DNA from: Liolophura sinensis
Taxonomy: Eukaryota > Mollusca > Polyplacophora > Chitonida > Chitonidae
Length of the DNA stretch: 64,000 bases
Assembly (NCBI RefSeq): GCF_032854445.1
Contig: NC_088301.1
Span: forward strand, 24,846,402 to 24,910,401
Direction of reading: 5' to 3'
Shown: one piece after another, positions 23,001 to 64,000 of the stretch
Layout of the letters: every line of letters starts with the position of its first letter
Position numbering within the stretch: position 1 is the stretch's first letter
Program-made: the position numbers and the translations under genes
The notes under the pieces: generated by a model
The model's database searches: none
Told to the model about the DNA's origin: nothing
Seen by the model: only the letters and a program-made list of their open reading frames with translations

Positions 23001-26000
23001 TCTTTAAAAGTCTTAGGTGTGACTTGACCCGGGATTGATCCTGGATCTACTGCTCCTGAAGCGGACGCTCTACCAACTGTGTTATCTGGGCCAGTCATTT
23101 TATATATGAAAATAACGAAATCTTTGTTTGCATCAAGGGATCAGTCTAGGACCTACTAACAAAGAAAGTATTTGTTTAACAGCCGTGAAAAGTTATGCAT
23201 ATATTAAAAATAAGTAACAATAATAGTGAAATGCAGTTTTTGCGAAATGGCTTCTTGATCACATCCACGTGTAATTATGACAATCTGAACAGCATTTCAA
23301 AGCACAACAACGTGACAACTACACACATAAATCATGATGGTGAGTGAGTGAGCGCTTGTGGTTTGACGTCATACTTAACAATTTTTCAGTCACATGATGA
23401 CGAAGGAGGTCTTAGGGGTGACCCGACCCAGATATCTACCATTCCCGAAGTGGACACTCTTCCAACAGTGCTAAATCATAATAGATGTATTAGATAGAAC
23501 GGTTGTACACACCTACTTCCCCATTTACTTCTCCCAGATTCTCATCCCACAAGTCTGCATGTAACAATGATGGTTTCACTTCTACTTCCTTGAAGAACTT
23601 TGTCAATTTTGGAAGAAGATGATTCCACAATTCAATGACTTCTCGCTCCCCATACTGAAACACACAAGTTTCTGACTTACTCACACCTGGGGCCTCCGTG
23701 GCTCAGTCGGTTAGCGTGCTAGCGCAGTGTAATGACCCAGGAGCCTCTCACCAATGCGGGCCGCTGTTAAGTCCAGCTCATGCTGGCTTCCTCTCCGGCC
23801 ATACGTGGGAAGGTCTACCAGCAACCTGCGTATGGTTATGGGTTTCCCCTGGGCTCTGCCTGGTTTTCACCCACCATAATGCTGGCCGCTGTGGTATAAA
23901 TGAAATATTCTTGAGTACGGCGTAAAACAACAATCAAATAAATCAAATAAATACTTACACATGTAATTAGAAATTACAGGCATAAAGTTGAGCATCACAC
24001 AAAAAAGTGGGCGAAAGAAACCGGAATGCCAATATTTTATACATGTAGCTATCACAAATACTTACGTAGTGCACTGAAAAGAACTTTCAGTTATAAAAAA
24101 TATAACAGATTTGGTAGCAATTAAGGCTGCCTTCAGCTCAATACATTAATTTCTTTAACATTTACTTTAACCAGAGCTCAATACATTGAGAGCTGTACTT
24201 TTTGAGAAGTGGATGGAGGAGACCAGAGGAAACCAAAGTAGGCAAATGAAACCAGAGTAGGCAAAGCAAAGCAGTGTAGGTAGAGCAAACTAGAGTAGGC
24301 AGGGCAAACCAGAGTAGGCAGAACAAACCAGAGTATGCAGGGCAAACCAGAGTAGGCAGAACAAACGAGTGTAGGTAGAGCAAATAAGAGTAGGCATGGC
24401 AAACCAGAGTAGGCAGAACAAACCAGAGTAGGTAAAGCAAACAAGAGCAGGCATGGGAAACTAGAATAGGCAGAGCAAAACAGAGTAGGCAGAGCAAACC
24501 AGAGTAGGCAGAGCAAATCAGAGTAAGCAAAGCAAACCAGAGTGCCAGAAGTTAATCACTGTCCCTTGCCAAATACCTCACAAAGCTCCTGATTTAAAGC
24601 CACAGATAAGCCACTGTTTTATACATGGAGTTTTCACAAATATGGTGGTGCAGTGAAGAAAACTTATGGCATGGATAAAAGCCAAAACAGAATTGGTAGC
24701 AAAGGCTGCCCAAGAGCTCACTTGTAGGAGACACATTAATGCAAATCATCAGTACTTTATCATTTACTGTAACTTGGATTCCACCACACAAAAAGAGACA
24801 ATCATGAATTTTGTGAATGATGGTAATTAACATCAATGATGGAAACACCCACTTCATGTCATAGAGCTTTAGATGTATGCAAAATCTGAGCTCAATACCT
24901 GCTATACGTTTTGAGATACCATCCTTAACATTTACCTTAACACTGCTTTAACTGATATTGGATGCTTGGGGTATGACATAATCTCCATCTGTACAAGCCA
25001 CCTAAAATGATCACCTTTAACTTTAAATGTTGAACGGGATGCTGAGCTAAGCCAAACGACCAAGCTCAAACAAACAAATAGGTCAGATAGGGAACAGTTT
25101 GTCCTCTTGACCTGAAATGACATTATCTTTGAGTCGTTCTAATTTGACTGTGGCTTTACGTTGTGAGGATGTCAGGTAATTAACAAAGGAGTGTTATACA
25201 ACAGTCAAATTAATAAAACCATTTCTGTTTGGGAGGTTATTATGCCATGACGTCAAAAATTTTATATGAACAAAATTGAACACACTTTTTTTAATACATA
25301 CATTTGATTCTAACAGAGATATCTGTGTTTGCATCTTACGTGCCCAATAATCCTGAAAGAGAAACAGGAGAACAAATCTGAATTACACTTACATGTACTT
25401 ACCTTTTTATCTATTTACATATTTATTTATTTACTTGATGTTTTGTGCTGTACTCCAGATTCATTCTCTTAAGGGACATAGCATAGCATTTAATGTACAC
25501 ATATATGAACCTAACTTGTTATAAAATAAATGTTGCAAAAACAGTTAATCAGTCTTGACTATCTGATCACAGTATATTCAAATGTAGACATAAATAAACT
25601 TAATATAATAAACTCATGATAACGCTTTAATCAATTACTATTACATGAGGGTATTACGCCCACAGTCAGATAGGTTAAATCTTGTCCTTGAACATTCAAC
25701 TGGAACAAAATCTGCATGAGCTGGATTTGAACACATCACCTTGGGGCTTAATTGGGCTTTGGATAGTGCTGCATTCATTTATAAAACAGTTGGCCAGGCA
25801 GTGCCAAGTTTATTAACCTTTGTCCCATTATGACATTTCAATAGCAGACCCGATAAGTAATTTGCATGTTTTTATATTTATTTATTTATTTACTTGATAG
25901 GTGTATCTTTAATGTCTTACTCAAGAAATTTCCACTCCCGTGCCAGAGCTCAGATTTTTTTGGTGGAGTGCCAGATATCTGATAAAACCCTGAATGAAAA

Positions 26001-29000
26001 GTCGAAACCCAGCTGGTGAGGACACAAATGGCTGGTGCTGATGTGAAAAATGTTTAAGCTATATGAGGACGAAAGTTAATACATGCATATTCATGGACAT
26101 ATTGTTGAAACTTAATTAGGAAATGTACCAGCCAGTTATCTGTCCATGTTGTGTCTTGCAGAATAAACCCATTGCTGGTCACAATGTCAAACCCAAACTT
26201 GTCCACATACAGCCCTACTCCTGCTGTCTGGTGATGTATACTACCTTCAGTTGCCTCCCCTTTTCTCCCACGTTTTTCATTGGCCAAATGTAATCTACAA
26301 CAGAGATGCTGACAGACTAACACCTAAAAACATTAACATTAACAAACATGATTTATTGATTTTTATTTAACTGACGGTTCACTTACATGATGGAGAGGTG
26401 AGGTTTATGGTCGAAAGCAAATGGATTGCCCAGGGTAATTAACCACTGAACCTTTGACAATTTACCGATGGACATGTCATACAAATATTCACACCATATT
26501 GATGGAAGACAAGTGGCCTTCAAAACTCTACACCCTAGACATCATAAACTTCTACACAAATCTTGTCCATCGTTTACAGTCACAACAGACCAGGAACAGA
26601 GAGCGTAAAATGACAAATATCCCCGAAAAAAGAACATCAATCTGCGGTCATCACAAAAGAGCTAATAAAAAATCACTTTATAAAGTCTGGATTTGTTACG
26701 AATAGCTAGATAGGCATCTCATTAGGCCTTGAGATATGTACAATGAGATACTCTTTATACAGTGTTTTCAAGACCTACTGAATAATTATTGAAACTATAA
26801 CCTGAAAATGTACAGAAAATGGCGTAAAAGTGTATTTCAAGAGAAAATAAATGTTACAAAATATATTTTTTTAGGCTGTGAAACTTGAATTTTCTAGTCA
26901 GATATCATCCTACCTCACAAACAAACCTCAAACCACTTTTCTAATCTCAACTCTCCAAAAATGAGTATTTTTAGCCATGGGTGAAGTTTTACCTTTGGTT
27001 TATTTATTTAATTGGGGGGCCTCCGTGGTTCAGTCGGTTAGCGCGCTAGCACAGCGTAATGACCCAGAAGCCTCTCACCAATGCGGTCGCTGTGAGTTCA
27101 AGTCCAGCTTATGCTGGCTTCCTCTCCGGCCGTAAGTTGGAAGGTCTGCCAGCAACCTGCGGATGGTCGTGGGTTTCCCCCGGGCTCTGCCCGGTTTCCA
27201 CCCACCATAATGCTGACCGCTGTCGTATAAGTGAAATATTCTTGAGTACGGCGTAAAACACCAATCAAATAAATAAATAAATAAATTTATTTGATTTGTG
27301 TTGTACACCGTACTCAAGAATATTTCACTTATAGGAAGGCGGCTAACATTATGGTGGGAGGAAACCAGGCAGAGCCCAGGGGGAAACCCACGACCATCCA
27401 CAGGTTGCTGGAAGGCCTTCCCATGTACAGCCGGAGAGAAAGCCAGCATGAGCTGGACGAACTCACAGTGACATTTACCTTTGATCATAGGTCAGGCATG
27501 CAGACCAGGTTATTATTTAATACAAAATTATACAATACACATTACAAAATATCTAGGTAGTATTCATGTCTTAGAGAATGAAGACATCTTAATATTCTTG
27601 CTACAATTACATATATATTGGCTAATATGAGCAGACCAAGTGTCCCCAAAATTAGAAGAAATAGGGTGAGTTGATTATGGTGTGGGTGGACATTTCAGGT
27701 ATTTGTCACAATCAGTAAAGCCATTTGGTTACAATTTCAATAACAATGTACCTATATATACATACTGGGCCAAGCTGGTTAACAGGCCAGCGCAGCGTAA
27801 TGACCCAGGAGGGCTTCTCACTAATGAGGTCACTGCGAGTTCAAGTCCAGCTCCTGCTGGCTTCCTCTCCAGTTGTACGTGGGAAGGTCTGTCAGCAACC
27901 TGCGGATGATCATAGGTTTTCCTCCCACTATAATGCTGGCCGCCGCTGTATAAGTGAAATATTCTTGAATACGCCATAAAACGCCAATCAAACAAATAAA
28001 TATATAGATACTTACTGAGCGATGCTCAGGCCTAGTTTGGAGAAGCTTTTCTGGTCCTGAAGGGCTGTTAGCTCCAAATACTCCATCAGCAAGGCACATC
28101 CCTTTGTTGGCAAAGCAACAACCTGCACTAGCATAAAAATTTACATGAACATATTGAAAAAATTTTTTTTCTTGAAAATTTAAAATAAATCATTTTGCAT
28201 CGTGCATACTGTAAATGTATACCTACATGAAAGAGAAAAAAATTTCTGAATAAAACAATCTAATATCCTGTACTGCTTACATTAAAACTCCTTCCCGTAT
28301 GCAACAAAATATTGTGATGTACATAATGTATTTATTAATTTCATTTCATGTTTGGAGAGGTACTGAAGAATATTTCACGCTCATTATGTCATTCAGACTG
28401 ACATGTAGGGAAGGTGTAATGAAGGCTGGTGGGGGGGGGGGGGGGAGGTGTCAGGGGGACCTGGCAGCTTACCAAGTAACTAACAAATTACCTGATGTAA
28501 GGCTGCAGCCAAAGTGAATGTAGGATCTTTTTGATGACAGCCGTGTAGATGTGTTACACCTCAACACTGCTTGTGATGAATAAGCATTTTCCAGGCACAC
28601 ACAGAGAACATGTGAAGCACCTTACCTATATTGCATTGGTGTACCGCTTCGGTGGCCTAATTAGTAAAGCAAAGTTGGGAGACCTCGGATCAAACCTGGG
28701 TCAAGTCACACCAAAAAATGTGTTTTTGAAAAATTGCTAAGTACGACGTTAAACCCCAAGCATTCATTTCATTCATTCATTCATTCACTCATTCCACTGA
28801 TGTATAAGATGCTACATTGGTGATGCATGATAATGAGGTTATATACCAATACCTTAATAGGACATGGGACTTTTACAATATCTGCTTTCCTCAGTTCTTC
28901 TAAGCTTGCAAATTCACCATGAAACATCTGTCTGGCCTTCATAGAAAAATGAAAGACAGGAGAAAAAGAATGTGTGTGATTAATTTACATTCAATTATGC

Positions 29001-30126
29001 CAACATCGCATATAATAACATGTACTTGTTAACCTCCGTTAGTATGATCACAAACTGATTCATGCAGATTAAGTAAATAATAATGGGAAAGTTTGTCAGA
29101 AACTTGCAAAGATCAGTTGTATACGCCGGGCACTCCAGTTCAGTGGTTTATGCCGGGCACTCCAGTTCAGTGGTTTATGCCGAGCACTCCAGTTCAGTGG
29201 TTTATGCCGAGCACTCCAGTTCAGTGATTTATGCCGGGCACTCCAGTTCAGTGGTTTATGCCGAGCACTCCAGTTCAGTGGTTTATGCCGGGCACTCCAG
29301 TTCAGTGGTTTATGCCGAGTGCTCCAGTTCAGTGGTTTATGCAGGGCACTCCAGTTCAGTGGTTTATGCCGGGCACTCCAGTTCAGTGGTTTAAGCCGGG
29401 CACTCCAGTGTCCCCTACTCGCGTATGTATCTCACTCTCATAATATAAGCGAAAAATTTTGAGTATTGAGTTAAACCACAATCAAATAAATAACGAAATA
29501 TATTTAAGAATTTTGACCGTGGTTACTTTGTATGTGCCACTATAGGCATAATTAGGGAATTAAACATAGAGTGTGATTACTTCGTCACACTTAAAATTTG
29601 ATATAAAAAATGCTCTTTCAAAAGCATAAAATGACACTTTTGTAAGCAACACAGTTTCTTTATGGATGACAACTTCTGATTTATTTCTTGCAACATTTCG
29701 ATGTACATTCTAACAATGATATAAAGCATGTCACAAAGCTAACGATGTACATCGAATATGCCGCAAAAAATAAATCAGAAGCTGTTATCCATACAGAAAC
29801 TTTGTGTTGTTGCTCTGTCAACTTCTATATGCCTCTCAAAGAGCTTTCAGAGTTGTTCATAAGGTGAAAGAATCAGTCGGAATTAAGTACAATGTGGCAC
29901 TTGAAAAATAATAACCATTAGGTGAAATACAGCACCATAATTGTTTACCTGTGGTCTGTCACTCAGTTTGACAAACACATCACCCTTGTCCGTCTGGTAG
30001 ACACCATTCTGATTGACCATTCCACCTGGACAACTTCTCTTAAACTGGACAGACTCTGTCTCCATGATATCACAGATAGCCTGTTCCACCTCATTCTGTG
30101 TGTCTTCATCAGGCTGGATCTGCATG

Positions 30127-30168
<42 letters not shown>

Positions 30169-30898: not shown

Positions 30899-31425
30899 TT
30901 GGTACTGACACGCTCGCCACCAATGACACCCGTGACATCTGACAACTTCCTCACACAGGTGTTAAATTTCCAGAGATAAACAAAACATCGGCCAACAACC
31001 GCCTGTGCCCTTCGCACTCGCGGCCCAAAAAAAAAATTAAATTACCTCCCTTCGGAAGATTATCTCCCCTTATTCCACTTGTCTCCTCTGCTACATTCAT
31101 GTCAACCAGAACTTAGGGGACGAAAACGTTACTCCAAACTATTGAAGACAGATCTTTCTTGTTTGGGTTATAAGATGAATCTGCCTTTGTATTTAGTGGA
31201 AATATAAACCATGTTTGACAAGACTGGGAAAAATCAGGGATCACACTTAACCAAAAACAAAAAAACAAAACATTAACCCAAAACAAAAGAAGTATAGAAC
31301 ACCACCTCACCCAAAAAAAGAAAACAAACACGTAGAGTTGACATCACAAGAAGCTGTGTAAAAAGGGACATTACGTTTACAGGAATAATCCCACATATCT
31401 CCCTTGTTTTATAACATCAGTCAGG
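30899..31425. other. 5' flank and probable promoter of FN3K
   Basis: The FN3K start codon is at 30898. The 150 bp beyond it are richer in CpG (GCCCTTCGCACTCGCGGCCC near 31009-31025). I see no TATA box. The rest is low-complexity A-rich DNA. Confidence 0.45.
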
Positions 31426-31426
31426 T

Positions 31427-31690
31427 TCATTTATTTATTTATTTATTTATTTGATTGGTGTTTTATGCCGTACTCAAGAATATTTCACTTATACGACGAT
31501 TGCCAGCATTATGGTGGGTGGAAACCGGGAACAGCCCGGGGGAAACCCACGACCATCCGCAGGTTGCTGACAGACCTTCCCACGTACGGCCGGAGAGGAA
31601 GCCAGCATGAGCTGGACTTGAACTCACACTGACTGCATTGGTGAAAGACTCCTGAGTCATTACGTTGCACTAGCGCGCTAACCGAGCCAG
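31427..31690 (-). repeat. SINE-A copy, minus strand
   Basis: TTATTTGATTGGTGTTTTAT to GCACTAGCGCGCTAACCGAG; the tail is a clean (ATTT)n run, and the last bases of the head are lost. Confidence 0.92.
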
Positions 31691-33695: not shown

Positions 33696-36600
33696 TCACA
33701 ACAAAATCTTGTATTTTTCCGCTCTTGGCACTCTGTTGATAACAACACGACCGTCGTAACTAAGGGAGACAAACACCCAAGGGTCAGCTGTTGACCATTC
33801 CACTGCGTAAACACTATCTTCATGCTCTTCATATGTTGCTAGGACACTGTCCTCAATTGGTTCCCTTGTTCTGCAAAAGACAGATTTAACCTCAATAGTA
33901 ATTGTAATATTACACTTGTAATCAACACTTGGTTACCTGTACTTAGTAAGATAACATATCAAGCTGATCAAAGGCTGTCTTTTAGGATACTACGTAATAC
34001 ATAAAACACAAAGAAGAATATATACATACACACAACATTATGTCCAACTAGTTCGCACAACAGAAGACTATCGATATTTATGTCATTCAAAATATATTCC
34101 AATTCATGAAAATATTTTGTGAAACTATGCTTGTATAACTCTTAATGAACAAAGAATGCAGAATGCATTTTCCATAAAAGGCATGTGAATCAGGTTGGAA
34201 TCAGGTTTTCAAAACTTTGCGTTCAAACTTTAACTCAGTTTCCATATGTCTGATCAAATCAATCACAACTAAAACTAAGTGTTATTAATAAACTGTTTAA
34301 CTAACCCCTCCTTGACCTCTTCTTCATCCTCACTGTTGTCGTCTTCCTCCACCAGGTGGCCAAACGGCTCGGAAGATAACGTGACCACATTGTTGAGGAC
34401 TACTCGGCTATCACTGCTTGCCGACAGAACCAACTGGTCATGGAAATGGTTGTACCTTACTGACCACACCCTGCAAAATAAAACAAGGGAGATAACCTTT
34501 GACACAATGAGAACGTGAGTGAGCAAGTGAGTGAGTGCTTGGAGTTTAACGTTGTAGTTAACAATTTTTCAGTCGTATGACGACGAAGGAAACCTTAGAG
34601 TGCATTTAATGTGCCTCCTTGTTGCAGGACGGATCTCCACCACTCTTTCATCTAGTGTTGCTTCACTAAGACGCCTTACCGAAGGCAAGTAAGCTGCCCC
34701 ACCTGAGCCATTATACTGATGCTGGTCAACCAGTCATCGCACTATCCCCTTCATGCTGAACACCAGGCGAGGAAGTTACAACTTCCTCTTTTAAGGTCTT
34801 AGGTGTGACTTGATCCAGGATTGACCCTGGATCTACCGCTCCCGCAGTGGACGCTCTACCAACTTTGCTATCAAGGCCAGTCCATTGAGAAAGTGAAGCA
34901 GAAATCCTGGTGCTGCATCTACCATTGGAATTTATCACTTTAAGAGAACCACAGGGAAACCCTTTAAAATTAAAGTAATCAGCACCAGAAAAAAAATCTC
35001 ACTGAAAACAAAATCGAAAAAGAATTTTAATTATATTTATTAAATTCATTTTTATAAATGGGAGAAAAATAACTGGTATTAATATATCAAAGCTTTACAA
35101 ACTATCACATCTAGCGTAAACACCTGAAATTCAGTGGGTACGACATGCTGCAGACTGAAATTTGTGGCCATGTGCCTCTGAGCCAATAACCATGACAACT
35201 GTTTAAGTAACCCTTGGGCCTAACACACTGTTAATCTTCTGACACTAGGAATCATTCAAAAGTATTCTTCCATTTGTTTTTTTTTTTTTGTTTTTTTTTT
35301 TTGGCATACAGCACACTAAGATAAATCAACTGGACTGACAAACAGTTTCTACAACATGTCACATTTTCCAACACAATACAACATTTACCATTTAGCATTG
35401 AATAAGCAAATACGTGTAGATATACATTCAGGAACTTACCCAAAATTAACTTTTTTAACAAGTAATGTGTAAATTAGTCACTTGGACAGACAAAGAGATG
35501 CACAGACAAAAACGTCAGTAATATCCTTTGGGATGAGACAGCTTTGAAAACAGACATGTACGACAGCCACTAACCAGTGTGAGTGATCAGACAGAACTTT
35601 AAGGGGCTCGCTGGGGTTCCTGACATCCCAGAATCTCACTCTGCAGTCATCCCCACAACTGCTCAAGTAATACTGCTTGTTGGGGTTGAAGTCTATATCC
35701 CTCACCAGCTGACCATGGGCGTTCTCTATCGTGTACACCACACTATATAAGGACAGAGAAATATATTTGATTGATTTATTTGATTGGTGTTTTACGCCGT
35801 ACTCAAGAATATTTCACTTTTACAACGGCGGCCAGCATTATGGTGGGAGGAAACCGGGCAGAGCCCGGGGGAAACCCACGACCATCTGCAGGTTGCTGGC
35901 AGACCTTCCCACTTACGGCCGGAAAGGAAGCCAGCATGAGCTGGACTTGAACTCACAGCAACCGCATTGATGGGAGACTCCTGGGTCATTATGCTGTGCT
36001 AGCGCGCTGACCAACTGAGCCACAGAGGCCTCCAGAGAAAATATATTAATATAACAAAATATATTTAAAAAAATATATATACATGTTTAACATAATCAAA
36101 TACACAACTGCATACACGTAGTAATTATATAAACATACCACAGATGCTCATATGCTTCCTTCACTTTTCATGCATAAACCTGAGAGAACAAGTTCAAAAT
36201 TGTTTTAAATAGCAGCAGTTAGCCCACATAAATAAACTTTAACAAACTTCCACAGATTTTGGGTCATAAATTTTTCGATATCATCAAAATAGTTAATTTG
36301 TCCTAATTTGTCCTTTATGAATTAACATCTCATTGCTTTGCCTGGACTGTGGACATGTCAGATTATCAAGACATACTGCATGCTCCTGAGGTCCCAGCCC
36401 CGTATTGTTGTGTCATTGGCCGTTGCGATCTGTGAACAATTATGGTGAGGGTTCCACTTCCCACTGGTCAACTTTGGATGGCCTTTGCCCTCCAGAGATG
36501 CTGAATCTTTTAACTGAGTGAAAGAATGTCAAATTGAATTAATTACAACACTGAATAATTTATACTTGTTTGTTATTTTCAGCAATTTCTAGTGTTTCAC

Positions 36601-49700: not shown

Positions 49701-52700
49701 GATACTGTATACTTTTACGTATATGGTTTGTCAGGCACCAGTGCTCCTTTACTCCAGTTTGGTCCATACTAAACCGGACAGAGAAATCTTGAGTATGCCA
49801 TTAAACATCAGTAAAATAATTAATAATTTACCTAATTTTACCTAATGTTAGGGAAGAGAAGACGTGTGTCATATTTGACAATAGCTGGAAGAAATTTCTC
49901 AAATACTGTGTAGAAAGTAACAAGCAAAATGCCCCCTTTCCCTTTTACAAGCCATAAACTCAGAGTAAAAGGCAGATTGGAGTCTTAGTCTGCTCTGGGC
50001 GTTCTGTTGACCACCCTTCTGGCGAGGGTTAATTAACCTGGAAAGATTGGAAGAAATTTAACAAATTTGTGAATGAAAATCAAATATTATTTGGTAATAT
50101 GTTAATTTAACAGTATGTGATGTAGCGTGCACTCAGCCAATGTACATTTTGAAATTGAAATCCTTACCACGCACTCGGTTTTCATCCACCCTGTAACCTG
50201 CTTACTGTCACATAAGTGAAAAATTCTTACACGTGGTGTCAAACACCAATCAAATAAATAATGAAATTATAAAAAATAATGAAAAAAAATAACAACAGAG
50301 GTAACATAAGTATATTGAATACCTTCCGTTGAGAACTACGGGGAATAGCACTGAAACTCTGACCGGGCACAGTAGCCACCTAAGCCACAGAAGCCCTGCA
50401 AAAAGCTGTATTGCTGTTATGAACTCATGTGATGAATTGTGGATAACGAGATTGTTGTGTTAATTCCGTATCGATGTATGCATCTCTGTGTTTTGGCTAG
50501 GTTCTATGGTTCCGTTTGGGATGCGTATCCTTCACGCCAACTTACCACACTTCTTGGGGAGAACCCAGGATGCGCTGGACAGACTATATTATATCCTGGC
50601 TGTTGTCAAAAAGGTTTGTCACACTGGTTGGTTATGTTTGATGCAATATCCAGCAGATATTCTTGACAAGCCAGGTCATGAGAAGTATGTAGTACCTTAG
50701 ATGGAGATTGTGCATTGGTAGTGGTTGGATTGGTGATCTCCTCAGCGGAAGGTGAAGGTTCAGTTTTCATTGGGTTAGGCAAAAGGTAACAGTTGACATT
50801 CTGGCTAACTGGCGTGGCAATCAGCATAATGAGATAGACGTTGTACTGTGACTTTGATCCCTTATTAGTATACTGTGATGAAGTGGCTGTTCTTGTCTGA
50901 TATCTTTGTCATGTCATTCCTCTAAAGCAGGGATATGAATGTAAAACCGGCCTGCTACAAGGAGACAAACTCAGAGCAAATTAATAACAAGTGGAACATA
51001 ATCACTTGAAGTGAATTTCATGATTGGCATAAATGTGGTTTTAAATAACATTCTTTTCTGCTGTCAGATTCTTTAAAACTTTGGTTGTACAGATGAAGTA
51101 CCAATGAGTACCATTCTCTGCCTATTTACTGTAAATACACTACAGTGTGTGTAAATTCTTAGAAGGTTACAATGGTTACCATGGTGACAGAAAGTTTAAC
51201 ATTATTCTTATGATGAATACTCTTATTGCTAAATTACTGTGTTTGAATTCAATATAAACTGAAGCTGTTTTCAGGAAGATAATCTGGTATGATTTATTCT
51301 GAGGCCATGCTTTTTTTTGTGTGTTGACAGATAGTGTCTAATTTGGAGTCAGGTGGTGCAGAGGATGGGAGTCTACTGGAATTGTCAGCTGAAAGTAGGA
51401 AAGGTAGTAAAAGAAACAAGGATTACATATAAAACTGAGACCTGTTTCATTCTTTCCAGCTTAGCTTTCAGAAATACAGATCAGGGCCCGGGATCTTTAA
51501 ATGTACTTTTAAATGGCTATTTCTTACGTGACAAGGATAACATATTGCTAGGCAACATAAATTCAGGGTAAGTTATTGTAATATAAATTTCAGTGAAAAT
51601 ATTAATGGAAAGGAACATAAGTTTAATGGACTCAACCATTCACCAACCTGGAACTTCTCGATCATCTTTTGCACAATCTGTCAAAAATGTACACTAAAAA
51701 AATCATATTTCTTCATAATCCTACAGTATTTTTTACTTCATATCACCAAGTAATTTGCGAATAGTAAGGACCATAACATCATACTTATCACCTATGTAGT
51801 AGTGTGTTAATGATTATCATTTAATCGTGAACAACTTTTGTTTCTCCCAGCATCCCTGGAGTTATGGAGGAAGAGGGAGCTTCAGGTGTTGTACAGCACT
51901 GGAAACAGCCTACTCTCTGTCAAGGTAAGTTCACTCTGTGCTGGAAACAGTCTACTCTCTGTCAAGGTAAGTTCACTCTGTGCTGGAAACATCCTACTCT
52001 CCGTCAAGGTAAGTTCTCTCTGTGCTGGAAGCAGCCTACTCTCTGTCAAGGTAAGTTCACTCTGTGCTGGAAGCAGCCTACTCTCTGTCAAGGTAAGTTC
52101 TCTCTTTGCTGGAAACAGTCTACTCTCTGTCAAGGTAAGTTCTCTCTGTGCTGGAAACAGCCTACTCTCTGTCAGGGTAAGTTCACTCTGTGCTGGAAAC
52201 AGTGTACTCTCTGTCAAAGTAAGTTCTCTTTGTGCTGGAAACAGCCTACTCTCTGTCAAGGTAAGTTCACTCTGTGCTGGAAACAGCCTACTCTCTGTCA
52301 AGGTAAGTTCTCTCTGTGCTGGAAACAGCCTACTCTCTGTCAGGGTAAGTTCTCTCTGTGCTGGAAACAGTGTACTCTCTGTCAAGGTAAGTTCTCTTTG
52401 TGCTGGAAACAGTGTACTCTCTGTCAAGGTAAGTTCTCTTTGTGCTGGAAACAGTCTACTCGCTGTCAAGGTAAGTTCACTCTGTGCTGGAAACAGCCTA
52501 CTCTCTGTCAAGGTAAGTTCACTCTGTGCTGGAAACAGCCTACTCTCTGCCAAGGTAAGTTCACTCTTTGCTGGAAACAGTCCTGTGTCAGCAATGGTCT
52601 TTGTTGTGATGAATTCGTTATACTAGCATGTAGCATGGGTATATGGCACAATATTTTGTCTCGAAGATCAATTTTTCTACTCGACCCCTCTCTTGAAAAT

Positions 52701-55385
52701 ATTGATTATCTCGACGAAAAATATCAGGCCGTACACCCACGCAACAAGCTGATATAACTTATAATATCTATGTATCCATATGATGTACCTTAAATGACCA
52801 TAAATTTCGTCCATCACAACTTTGCCCGTTTTTGCCGATTCAGAGAGTTCTATTGATTTTAGAAAAGTGTTATAAGGTTTCCTTGTAACATGGGATGGTA
52901 TTCTATTGGAAAGTTGTAAGTTTCAGCACCAAAACTAATATTTTGTGACATATATCTGCCTCTCAAAATGCTCTTTTGTGGACGAAATTTTATGTCCTTT
53001 AGGGTATATATTTTTACTTGATGTGCACCATACTTCTTTATGATTGTAGGATTTTGAAGCTGGACTGGAAGTGTATGAAAGTCTACTAGAGAAAGATAAA
53101 GCCAATCACTCTGAGCTGCTGTGTGCTCTGGGGAGAATTTACCTTCAGGTACCAGCATTCTTTCATCTCAATCTTCGTTTATTGTTTTTTCCTTGAAATA
53201 TCTGGTACCGGACATCAGCAACAATATTGTTCATGCAGTGTGAAATTAAATCTTGCACATAAATCTATATGAACATTTGTGTATTTTTTTTTTGGGAAAT
53301 TTTTAAAAATTTTTCTATTTTTTTTTTTTTTTTGATGAAGCAGGCAGAGTTTAACTGTTTATTAAATAATCATATTTTGTTATTTAAACAAATGAGAGTT
53401 TGTCTTCAGGTCTCATAACTTTTGGTGTGATATTAAGATAGGAGATTTGTCGGTGAGTGACAAAGGCAAAATTTTTTCTCCAAGCTCTGTCTGGTTTCCT
53501 CAACCTTTGAACTTTACAGCCATCAAATAAATAAAATCTTCTTGGGTACGTAAGTTTCAGCACTAAAAGTAATATTTCATAAAATTTGTGTGTCTCTGAA
53601 AGTGCAGTTTTTTGGGGGGCAGAATTTTTTGGTCAACTACCGTAAATTGCTAAAAAAAAAAATAGAAAGGAGCTAGTACAGATATTTACAAGAAGGGTTG
53701 TGTCTTTCTTCTAGACCCCTGGAAGTTTTGTGTTGTACTGTCTTTCATGAGCAGTATTTTCCAATGTTTGAATCATCTCTTGTTATTTCAGATGGGAGAT
53801 ATAGACAAGGCTTCCAGTTACTTCAAGCAGTTTGATGATGAGTGTAGTAACCGTGACAACGTGATGACAGGAAGGATAGCCATCAGCCAGTCAGTCAAAT
53901 TAGACCAGTCCTTTGTTACAGGAAAACAAACCACCAAAATGAACTACTGTATTTCAACTTAGGTTTAGCTTTTTTTCCAATCAACAAATGTTCTGATTGA
54001 TTCATTCACCTTATAGGACCACTTAAAAGCTTGAGGTTATTGAAGATTAATTTTTTGACATCAAAAGCATCATTTTAGGGCGTTTTATGGGCTACTGAAA
54101 GTTCATTTTTACAAGTCAAACTTTAAATTGGAATATATATATATGTTAGACCACTACTTACATATTGTCCAGGAAAATATTTGTTTCCTTTTTTTTTTTT
54201 TAATTTCGTCAACCAGGTTATTTTTGAAAAATTGCAAGTATTATTTAAATGCTCTTGGTAGAAAATGGGTAAAGTTTTAATCTTTTTTACCTGTATGCAT
54301 ATAGGTGTCAGTTGTACGTGGCAATCCATCTGTGTTGATGTAAACTCGATGTTATACTGATCCACGTTACATTTTACTCTTTGCAGCGGCCTTGTTGCAT
54401 TATCAAGAAACAACTTTAATGAGGCGTACCAGTACTTTACAACAGCCAAGAAGGCAGATCCAACAAACCCTATCGTAAGTGAATACTTCACCCACATAAA
54501 TGTTTGAGCTCCAGTGTAAGCAATGACCTACATGTGCATGGAGGAAGCAACAGCTTCTCATGTCAAGTTTGACATTAAACAAGTAAAATACCGCATGGCT
54601 GTGAGAAAAGGTCTATATATTAATATCGCCACAGCCAAGATTTCTAGACTATTAAGCTATTCCTCCTCAAGTAAGTATGGTCAGTCATGTGTGTAATGAT
54701 CTTTAGCCTCTCACCATTGTGATTGTTCTGAGTTCAAGTCCAAATCATGCTGACTTCCTCCCTGGTCATATGCCGGAAGGTCTGCCTGCAATCTACAGAT
54801 GGCCCTGGGTTTCCTCGGACCATGTCTGGTTTCCTCCCACCATAATGTTTGCAGCTGTCGTATAAGTAAAGTAATCTGAGTATGGCATAAAACTTCAATC
54901 AAATAAATAAATAAATAAATAAATAAATAAACCTTCCTGAGATGGATATGCAGCAGGGGCCACTTTCACAGAGGTGTTGTATTTGTACGATATTGCACAT
55001 ATAAGACTGTGGTGTATTAATAGTGACTTACAAAAGATCGTACGACAAATGAAAAATCGACAGTAGCCCGTGAAGTATAACCAGGAACTGGATTTGAACA
55101 CACAACCTCATTATTCATTTAAATATTTGGCTCTTTTGACAGGCTGTCAATAACTTGGCCGTGTGTTACCTGTACATGGGTAAGCTGAAGGAGTCTCTGG
55201 CCACCCTGGAAGGCATGATACAGTCTGACCCCAGTAAAAACCTCCATGAAGGTGTCTTGTTTAACCTGTGTACCCTCTACGAGCTGGAGTCCTCAAGAGC
55301 ATCTCAGAAGAAGGCATCACTGTTAGAGATGGTCAGCAAACATAAAGGGGACAGTTTCCCAGTGGCCAGTCTAAAACTAGCCTAA
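40786..55385 (+). CDS. TRAPPC12: Trafficking protein particle complex subunit 12, eleven coding exons
   Basis: It is a TPR-containing subunit of TRAPPIII, used in ER-to-Golgi and autophagy-linked tethering; the human protein also has a mitotic kinetochore role. Exons: 40786-42036, 44610-44726, 47942-48055, 48928-49066, 50501-50613, 51331-51403, 51851-51924 (first donor), 53050-53148, 53792-53889, 54387-54474, 55143-55385. All junction phases agree. The total is about 802 residues (human 735). The ATG at 40786 is used because the open frame upstream has only GTG. Residues 1-370 are acidic and disordered. A conserved block follows ([25 protein letters not shown]), then [33 protein letters not shown] and [17 protein letters not shown]-like helices run from about 600 to the end ([32 protein letters not shown]). 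Exon 7 borders a 42-bp array of repeated splice donors, so longer in-frame forms are possible. Confidence 0.95.
42705..42914. mobile_element. MITE family A, copy 2 (TRAPPC12 intron 1 after the start exon)
   Basis: Reverse-complement relative of the 5737-5950 element: TTTTTGCATATGAAGAGCAA, GATTTTGGAGACAAAACCA, TTGGCCAATTTC, CTTGCAAACATGTTGAAGGA. The ends are less well preserved. Confidence 0.7.
43832..44190 (+). repeat. SINE-B copy, full length, plus strand
   Basis: Head AGCCCGAATAGCACCGTTGG with TTGGTAGAGCATCTGC and GGATCAGTCCTGGGTTGAGT, core GCATGAAGGGGATAGTGCAA, tail TATGACTGAAAAATTGTTGA then GTACGATGTTAAACCCCTGC. The best reference copy of the family in this window. Confidence 0.92.
44727..47941. 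other. TRAPPC12 intron of 3.2 kb
   Basis: Between exons 2 and 3 (numbering coding exons). It contains a SINE-A 3' piece (below) and otherwise unassigned AT-rich DNA. Open frames at 44989, 45956 (minus) and 46424 (minus) show no family likeness. Confidence 0.6.
47477..47625 (+). repeat. SINE-A copy, 3' half, plus strand
   Basis: ACAGGTCTGCCAGCAACCTG to GGCGTAAAATACCAATGAAA; the tRNA head is absent. Confidence 0.88.
48255..48510 (+). repeat. SINE-A copy, plus strand, in TRAPPC12 intron
   Basis: GGGGCCTCCGTGGCTCAGTT to GGCGTGAAACCTCAGTCAAA; a small deletion removes the CCGGTTTCC block. Confidence 0.9.
48590..48780 (+). repeat. Diverged SINE-C-like piece
   Basis: GTGGGAAAATTTGTCAGTTT, AATTCCTCCACCCACGAATC and GGAGAAAAATTCTTCGGTGC follow the order of SINE-C. 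Confidence 0.45.
49195..49410 (+). repeat. SINE-A copy lacking the 5' head, plus strand
   Basis: Starts at CCAATGCGGTCGCTGTGAGT and ends at GTAACACCAATCAAATAAAT. The host motif TTTTACATCATGTA stands on both sides (about 49181-49194 and 49407-49420), an exact target duplication of about 14 bp. Thus the 5' end was lost before or during insertion. Confidence 0.92.
49725..49830 (+). repeat. SINE-C 3' fragment
   Basis: GGTTTGTCAGGCACCAGTGC and AGAAATCTTGAGTATGCCAT then TAAACATCAGTAAAATAATTAA. Confidence 0.5.
51898..52590 (+). repeat. 42-bp tandem array carrying 16 copies of a TRAPPC12 splice donor
   Basis: The unit is CTGGAAACAGCCTACTCTC plus TGTCAAG (the exon end) followed by GTAAGTTCACTCTGTG (the intron start). 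It is repeated about 16 times with few changes, ending with a broken 17th unit. Donor GTs lie every 42 bp from 51925 to 52555. Most read CAAG|GTAAGT; two read CAGG|GTAAGT-like and one CAAA|GTAAGT. The array has no stops in any of three frames, so long overlapping reading frames on both strands here are by-products. It starts inside the exon, so at least the first unit is partly coding. Confidence 0.95.
52600..53049. other. Remainder of the TRAPPC12 intron after the array
   Basis: The block TTGTAAGTTTCAGCACCAAA with AATATTTTGTGACATATATC (about 52915-52955) recurs diverged at about 53543-53590, suggesting an interspersed repeat. Confidence 0.5.
54690..54932 (+). repeat. Diverged SINE-A copy, plus strand
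   Basis: TAGCCTCTCACCATTGTGAT through TTTCCTCCCACCATAATGTT to GGCATAAAACTTCAATCAAA and (AAAT)n. Confidence 0.85.
54958..55075. mobile_element. Possible MITE family B fragment
   Basis: One end GGGGCCACTTTCACAGAGGT matches the family terminal repeat; the other end is not clear (CTTACAAAAGATCGTACGAC is similar to the sub-terminal part). Confidence 0.4.
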
Positions 55386-58964: not shown

Positions 58965-59118
58965 GATTTATTTATTTATTTGACTGGTGTTTTACGCCGT
59001 ACTCAAGAATATTTCACTTATACGACGGCGGCCAGCATTATGGTGGGTGGAAACCGGGCAGAGCCTGGAGGTACCCACGACCATCCGCAGGTTGCTGACA
59101 GACCTTCCCACGTACCCA
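58965..59118 (-). repeat. SINE-A tail half, minus strand
   Basis: ATTTATTTGACTGGTGTTTT through to TTCCCACGTAC. The host motif CCAAGCTAAGTTGA flanks it on both sides (58952-58965 and about 59115-59128), a target duplication of about 14 bp, so this 5'-truncated copy inserted as it stands. Confidence 0.92.
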
Positions 59119-63510: not shown

Positions 63511-63707
63511 ATCTGCTCAGTCTTCTATTGTTTGTGTGTATAGCTGAGCTGTGTATATATACCATCTACTTGTGTGACTTTTCACCTACCTTGAAGATGA
63601 CAAATAAAATTTTGTGGAATTATTGAAATATTGAAACGTCAAATATGCAACTTTTCCGATTTTTTTTTCGAGTATCTATGCTTTTGCATTATGCTAAGCT
63701 TATTGGT

Positions 63708-63890
63708 GGATTTATTTATTTATTTATTTATTTGATTGGTGTCTTACGCCGTACTCAAGAATATTTCACATATACGACGGCGGCCAGCATTATGGTGGGT
63801 GGAAACCGGGTAGAGTACGGGAGAAACCCACGAACATCCGCAGGTTGCTGGATGATCTTCCCACATACAACCGGAGAGGAAGCCAGCATG
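63708..63890 (-). repeat. SINE-A copy, 3' part, minus strand
   Basis: (ATTT)n TGATTGGTGTCTTACGCCGT through to CCGGAGAGGAAGCCAGCATG. Confidence 0.92.
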
Positions 63891-64000
63891 GCTTAATGAT
63901 GGACCAACATGAGTGTGTTACAAAGCATGAGCAAAATACTTTAGGACTATCAGACTTGATACATGTACTTGTTTCCCATCACCTGGTTGTATGCCATTTT

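Follow-up and report, generated by a model that had tools for sequence, protein, structure and literature searches.

A 42-bp minisatellite spans the exon 7 splice donor of TRAPPC12 in the chiton Liolophura sinensis

Tandem repeats that span a splice donor are a kind of repeat already known, as the precedents of the human genes CBS and UBC indicate. Lievers reportedly described, in 2001, alternative splicing of CBS at its VNTR site. That VNTR, c.1444_1467+7(16_21), has a 31-bp unit composed of 24 exon and 7 intron nucleotides, and is present in 16-21 copies that differ in individual bases (PMC2630376, excerpt). Since 31 nt is not divisible by three, most alternative donors there would shift the reading frame. 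For arrays of the UBC type, splicing is reported to alter the number of repeats without a frameshift (PMC10809524, excerpt). Tandem duplication of a segment containing AGGT has been described as creating new potential splice sites (PMC3443670, excerpt).

We describe here a donor-spanning minisatellite in the TRAPPC12 gene of a chiton, which is real and clean. It resembles the CBS VNTR in that each unit combines an exon end with its donor and the first intron bases (26 + 16 nt, compared with 24 + 7), and in that many copies lie head to tail with a donor in each, the chiton array having 16 donors at 15 equal spacings. Unlike the 31-nt unit of CBS, the 42-nt chiton unit is a multiple of three.

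The gene model and the repeat array

The published genome of L. sinensis was originally named L. japonica, and the name was corrected afterwards (PMC12441733). Its assembly was made from HiFi reads (mean 8,347 bp, 14x), and the RNA-seq of the genome project (PRJNA973839) covered five tissues of a different individual (PMC11068029, excerpt). In the window, the whole stretch of 64,000 nucleotides analysed here, 11 coding exons were built from AG/GT borders. Their spliced product, obtained via the first donor of the array (donor 1), equals NCBI protein P0115, the trafficking protein particle complex subunit 12-like protein of L. sinensis, over its full length (802/802 residues). This identity confirms that the gene is TRAPPC12 and the exon its coding exon 7, as the initial annotation had stated. 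Two stretches of the minus strand, 34278-34568 and 35481-35813, contain pieces that match the Pfam family Beta-prop_EIPR1 (E 3.2e-4 and 7.6e-12, both below the curated cutoff), suggesting that an EIPR1-like gene adjoins TRAPPC12 on the opposite strand.

The hexamer GTAAGT occurs 16 times in the array, at 51925, 51967 and so on to 52555, and all 15 spacings are exactly 42 bp. Tandem Repeats Finder (TRF) reported a period of 42, 16.2 copies, 93% matches, 0% indels and a score of 1147 (Table 1). The repeat unit combines 26 nt from the end of exon 7 with the 16 nt that open intron 7. In the unit consensus the intron start makes up bases 1-16, and the 26 exon bases (51899-51924) are identical to the second part. 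A tandem array explains the even spacing of the donors, and a chance run of motifs is thereby excluded. Both the count of 16 donors placed 42 bp apart from 51925 to 52555 and the origin of the unit in the exon end and intron start had been proposed from the sequence beforehand, and both agree with our counts, the unit table giving 26 + 16 nt. The accompanying claim that nearly all donors read CAAG|GTAAGT holds for 13 of the 16 and fails for three, two of which are CAGG|GTAAGT (52177 and 52345) and one CAAA|GTAAGT (52219). Further copies of the unit were sought elsewhere in the 64-kb window, and none were found above 10-base matches.

Table 1. Coordinates of TRAPPC12 exons, donors and repeat features around the array
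Feature	Position	Strand	Basis
TRAPPC12 coding exon 6	51331..51403	+	AG/GT borders, translation; full model equals P0115
TRAPPC12 coding exon 7, form in the database protein, 74 nt, ending at donor 1, phase 0	51851..51924	+	
42-bp minisatellite, 16.2 copies, from the end of exon 7 into intron 7	51899..52580	+	TRF, unit table
Donor 1 (AAG|GTAAGT), used in the only known species protein	51925..51930	+	U1 duplex -10.6 kcal/mol
Donors 2-16, GTAAGT at 42-bp intervals, starting at 51967 for donor 2 and at 52555 for donor 16	51967..52560	+	
Donors 52177 and 52345, AGG|; donor 52219, weak AAA|		+	
Final partial unit past donor 16, containing the CTGGAAACAG stretch shared with the exon edge	52555..52580	+	
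First in-frame stop, were every array donor skipped	52624..52626	+	
TRAPPC12 coding exon 8, phase 0 start at Asp628 (DFEAGLEVY)	53050..53148	+	

The antisense of the array is also open, over 246 residues (51882-52622, minus strand). Read as protein, the array (51814-52623) scores 45.1 bits against Pfam Galaxin_repeat, above the cutoff of 28 (E 1.2e-11), which probably reflects the periodicity of the array. At 29113-29409 lies another minisatellite whose period is a multiple of three (27 bp x 11.0, 93% matches), with one plus-strand and one minus-strand frame open, and a 19-bp minisatellite at 24224-24543 (16.8 copies, 79% matches) has two minus frames open throughout. An open reading on the minus strand at 29886-30164 resembles what we take to be the start of a fructosamine-3-kinase-like protein. 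One further type of reading recurs in many ORFs, for example 27285-27557, 31342-31629, 58967-59095 and 63698-64000 on the plus strand and 27078-27491 on the minus strand, and is probably an interspersed repeat.

Donor strength was estimated as duplex energy with the U1 5' end. On this basis 13 array donors had a computed pairing of -10.6 kcal/mol and two of -10.0, and the donor at 52219 came to -5.6. Thus, 15 of the 16 are computed to pair strongly with U1. The other nine donors of TRAPPC12 range from -11.0 to -1.5 kcal/mol, with that of exon 3 (-11.0) alone exceeding the array donors. The array is a stack of donors that rank with the best of the gene. The predicted probability that a donor is unpaired varied between 0.0002 and 0.076, without a clear gradient along the array; local values were 0.039 for donor 1, 0.054 for donor 2 and 0.076 for donor 16, the most open. 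With accessibility lacking a gradient and donor 16 the most open, local RNA structure was rejected as the selector of the donor.

Reading frame and predicted effect on the protein

The frame of exon 7 stays open across all units until the stop at 52624. Joined to 53050, each of the 16 donors yields a stop-free protein; the shortest has 802 residues and the longest 1012, every further donor adding 14. These joins uphold the earlier statement that the next exon starts in phase 0, that 42 is divisible by three and that no unit carries a stop. In the +1 frame every unit contains a TAA; the +2 frame is open as well. A control, in which a 26+16 unit was taken from each TRAPPC12 intron and read in tandem in the exon frame, was open in 10 of 10 cases, so that stop-free units are of little information. 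Lack of stops was for that reason rejected as evidence, and frame neutrality is no evidence of donor use. The sole real coincidence is that the length of the unit is divisible by three, about 1 in 3.

The 15 full units carry 12 variant types in a mosaic, and these were examined for signs of selection in three tests of low power, none of which was significant. Five of the 12 variants are synonymous, where 26-30% are expected (P of at least five, 0.18-0.28). No variant type has a stop (P 0.75-0.84 by chance). All 12 lie outside GTAAGT (chance P about 0.16). Selection on the units was rejected, since no test was significant.

An insert made through later donors would, from the sequence, sit between Lys627 and Asp628. 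In an AlphaFold2 model based on a 62-row alignment, these residues occupy a short turn that links helix 598-625 to helix 629-642, and block means around the turn are 96 to 98 pLDDT. Designed TPR proteins align across the same stretch of TRAPPC12. Every 14-residue block ends in the native GNSLLSVK, so the residues beside helix B would be restored whichever donor was used. Modeled from its single sequence, the repeat peptide was predicted by AlphaFold2 as a confident beta-solenoid (mean pLDDT 86.3). Beta-solenoid predictions of this type have been reported as an AF2 artefact (PMC11795689, excerpt), and the fold, being a single-sequence prediction of that type, was set aside.

Choice of donor

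We consider it probable that the array is a frame-neutral passenger behind a dominant donor 1, and we infer the dominance of donor 1 in vivo from protein records, gene structure and published minigenes. The only protein of the species that was found is the donor-1 form, without an added block, in a cluster of one sequence; this record, P0115, may be a computed model. A longer variant was absent from the best 120 of 201 rows of the protein search. We fetched 230 related proteins, of which 212 cover the junction and 18 do not; 205 of the 212 show no change of length within 10 residues on each side, and the seven exceptions have length differences of -1 to +11. Among 62 aligned relatives, none has an insertion exactly between the junction columns. 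A protein search with repeat units, aimed at repeat-bearing proteins of about 98-311 residues, returned zero matches, a weak result in that known relatives were missed too. Short reads ending within the array are ambiguous, and later donors could thus stay hidden from them.

Exon 7 lies between an upstream intron of 447 nt and a downstream one of 495-1125 nt, which makes exon definition the most likely mode of recognition. As the exon would grow from 74 nt via donor 1 to 704 nt via donor 16, cross-exon proximity favours donor 1. In exon-definition minigenes with two identical CAG|guaagu donors and 365-nt introns on both sides, splicing went to the upstream donor only in each of the five constructs tested, a result obtained with two donors rather than 16 and in transfected cells, not in a mollusc (PMC9225289, excerpt). 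In human events taken without a donor-strength filter, the downstream donor was preferred in about 60% (PMC9225289, excerpt). The accessibilities predicted for the chiton array do not favour donor 1 either.

The initial annotation had suggested that several donors are used. Isoforms would then carry 0 to 15 extra 14-residue blocks in the TPR turn, with the number of units in an allele setting the range and alleles of different length shifting the mix of forms. This reading can draw on the computed U1 duplexes of -10.0 to -10.6 kcal/mol at 15 of 16 donors, on the frame being kept by each donor, and on two human precedents: the AG|GT tandem array of UBC gives rise to a ladder of isoforms by RT-PCR (PMC10809524, excerpt), and CBS activity has been reported as lower with more repeats at the exon 13/intron 13 VNTR (PMC5188458, excerpt). 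However, only the donor-1 protein was found, the insert occurs in 0 of 62 relatives, and the minigenes took the upstream of two identical donors; the suggestion is not supported by these results. The insert would also strike the short turn that joins two helices predicted with confidence. We regard the use of several donors as unlikely.

The CAAG|GTAAGT borders could also act as dual-specific or recursive sites, parts of the array being removed between the AG| and |GT of different units before the final splice, which would leave the mRNA mostly unchanged. AG|GT is present at 13 of 16 unit borders, the 17 bases upstream of each border are 65-76% pyrimidine (59-76% at the real acceptors of the gene), and human introns that lie within tandem repeats are reported to show an 8.4-fold enrichment of dual-specific AG|GT sites (PMC10809524, excerpt). 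The endings of the candidate acceptors argue the other way: 13 of 16 are AAG, two AGG and one AAA, whereas all 10 real TRAPPC12 acceptors end in CAG or TAG. A single 42-nt unit is probably too short for an intron, and two or more would have to leave together. We find such recursive removal decidedly improbable.

Still less probable is that the extra donors form an uncut cluster of U1-binding sites that reinforces exon 7 definition or protects the intron. In its favour stand 16 U1-complementary sites within 636 nt directly downstream of the used donor, but the hexamer is not significantly stricter than the rest of the unit over the 12 variant types (P about 0.16). Least probable of all is that the length of the array is an assembly artefact, easily as tandem repeats are miscounted, for a mosaic of 12 variant types is unlike the outcome of a simple copying error and the HiFi reads of the species assembly, whose tie to the window is drawn from the species match, far exceed the array with their mean of 8,347 bp (PMC11068029, excerpt).

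Origin of the array and comparison with known systems

In the reading we favour, of a passenger array behind donor 1, a minisatellite would have formed in the chiton lineage where exon 7 of TRAPPC12 meets intron 7, multiplying an authentic 5' splice site 16-fold. The sequence CTGGAAACAG is found at the start of the array in the exon (51899) and again after the last donor (52571). Its presence at both ends suggests that the array likely started by slippage or unequal exchange between short direct repeats of this kind, 42 bp apart. Later unequal exchange may have copied blocks of units; the identity of unit 6 with unit 10 and of unit 9 with unit 14 is consistent with this. U1 would be able to bind almost any unit, and donor 1, closest to the 3' splice site of exon 7, would win. 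That choice would give the normal 802-residue protein, the array being spliced out as intron. With units of 42 nt and no stops, a slip to donor 2, 3 or a later one would insert 14-residue blocks into the turn of a TPR hairpin and leave the frame intact, so that the array would be tolerable.

The splice position itself is old. In two fish isoforms the match ends at the K627 column and is followed by V, and a cheetah isoform breaks at the same place (P0081, P0085 and P0086). The three isoforms diverge at the same junction, which argues for an old splice position, and the V after K627 in the fish isoforms is as expected from reading into GT. A new intron formed by tandem duplication was ruled out, as these isoforms diverge at the same junction. 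The chiton array thus differs from intron gain by AGGT duplication: no intron was added, and an existing donor was multiplied at its old position.

Exclusive use of donor 1 would make the locus strong natural evidence for cross-exon proximity, and use of several donors would make it a rare frame-safe ladder of protein length. In either case it presents a natural experiment on donor choice, with a single 3' splice site for which up to 16 5' splice sites compete, all nearly identical and neutral in phase. The use of each donor could be read from long cDNA, with the frame intact.

No published repeat in TRAPPC12 was among the literature matches listed, which does not prove absence. As in UBC, the unit of the chiton tandem repeat is divisible by three (PMC10809524, excerpt), and AG|GT stands at 13 of the 16 regularly spaced borders of the chiton array. 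In UBC, however, the repeats are coding monomers, the intervals are 228 nt and the sites serve as both donors and acceptors (PMC10809524, excerpt), whereas the chiton array runs on from an old exon's border and is poor on the acceptor side (AAG), with CAG or TAG endings at none of its 16 borders compared with 10 of 10 real TRAPPC12 acceptors. The CBS VNTR is known to be polymorphic and the chiton array is known from one assembly; by analogy with CBS, it is plausible that copy number varies between individuals here too. The chiton array gives the human CBS VNTR a counterpart among invertebrates, and it departs from the known examples in its frame-neutral unit, in the animal group and in the gene.
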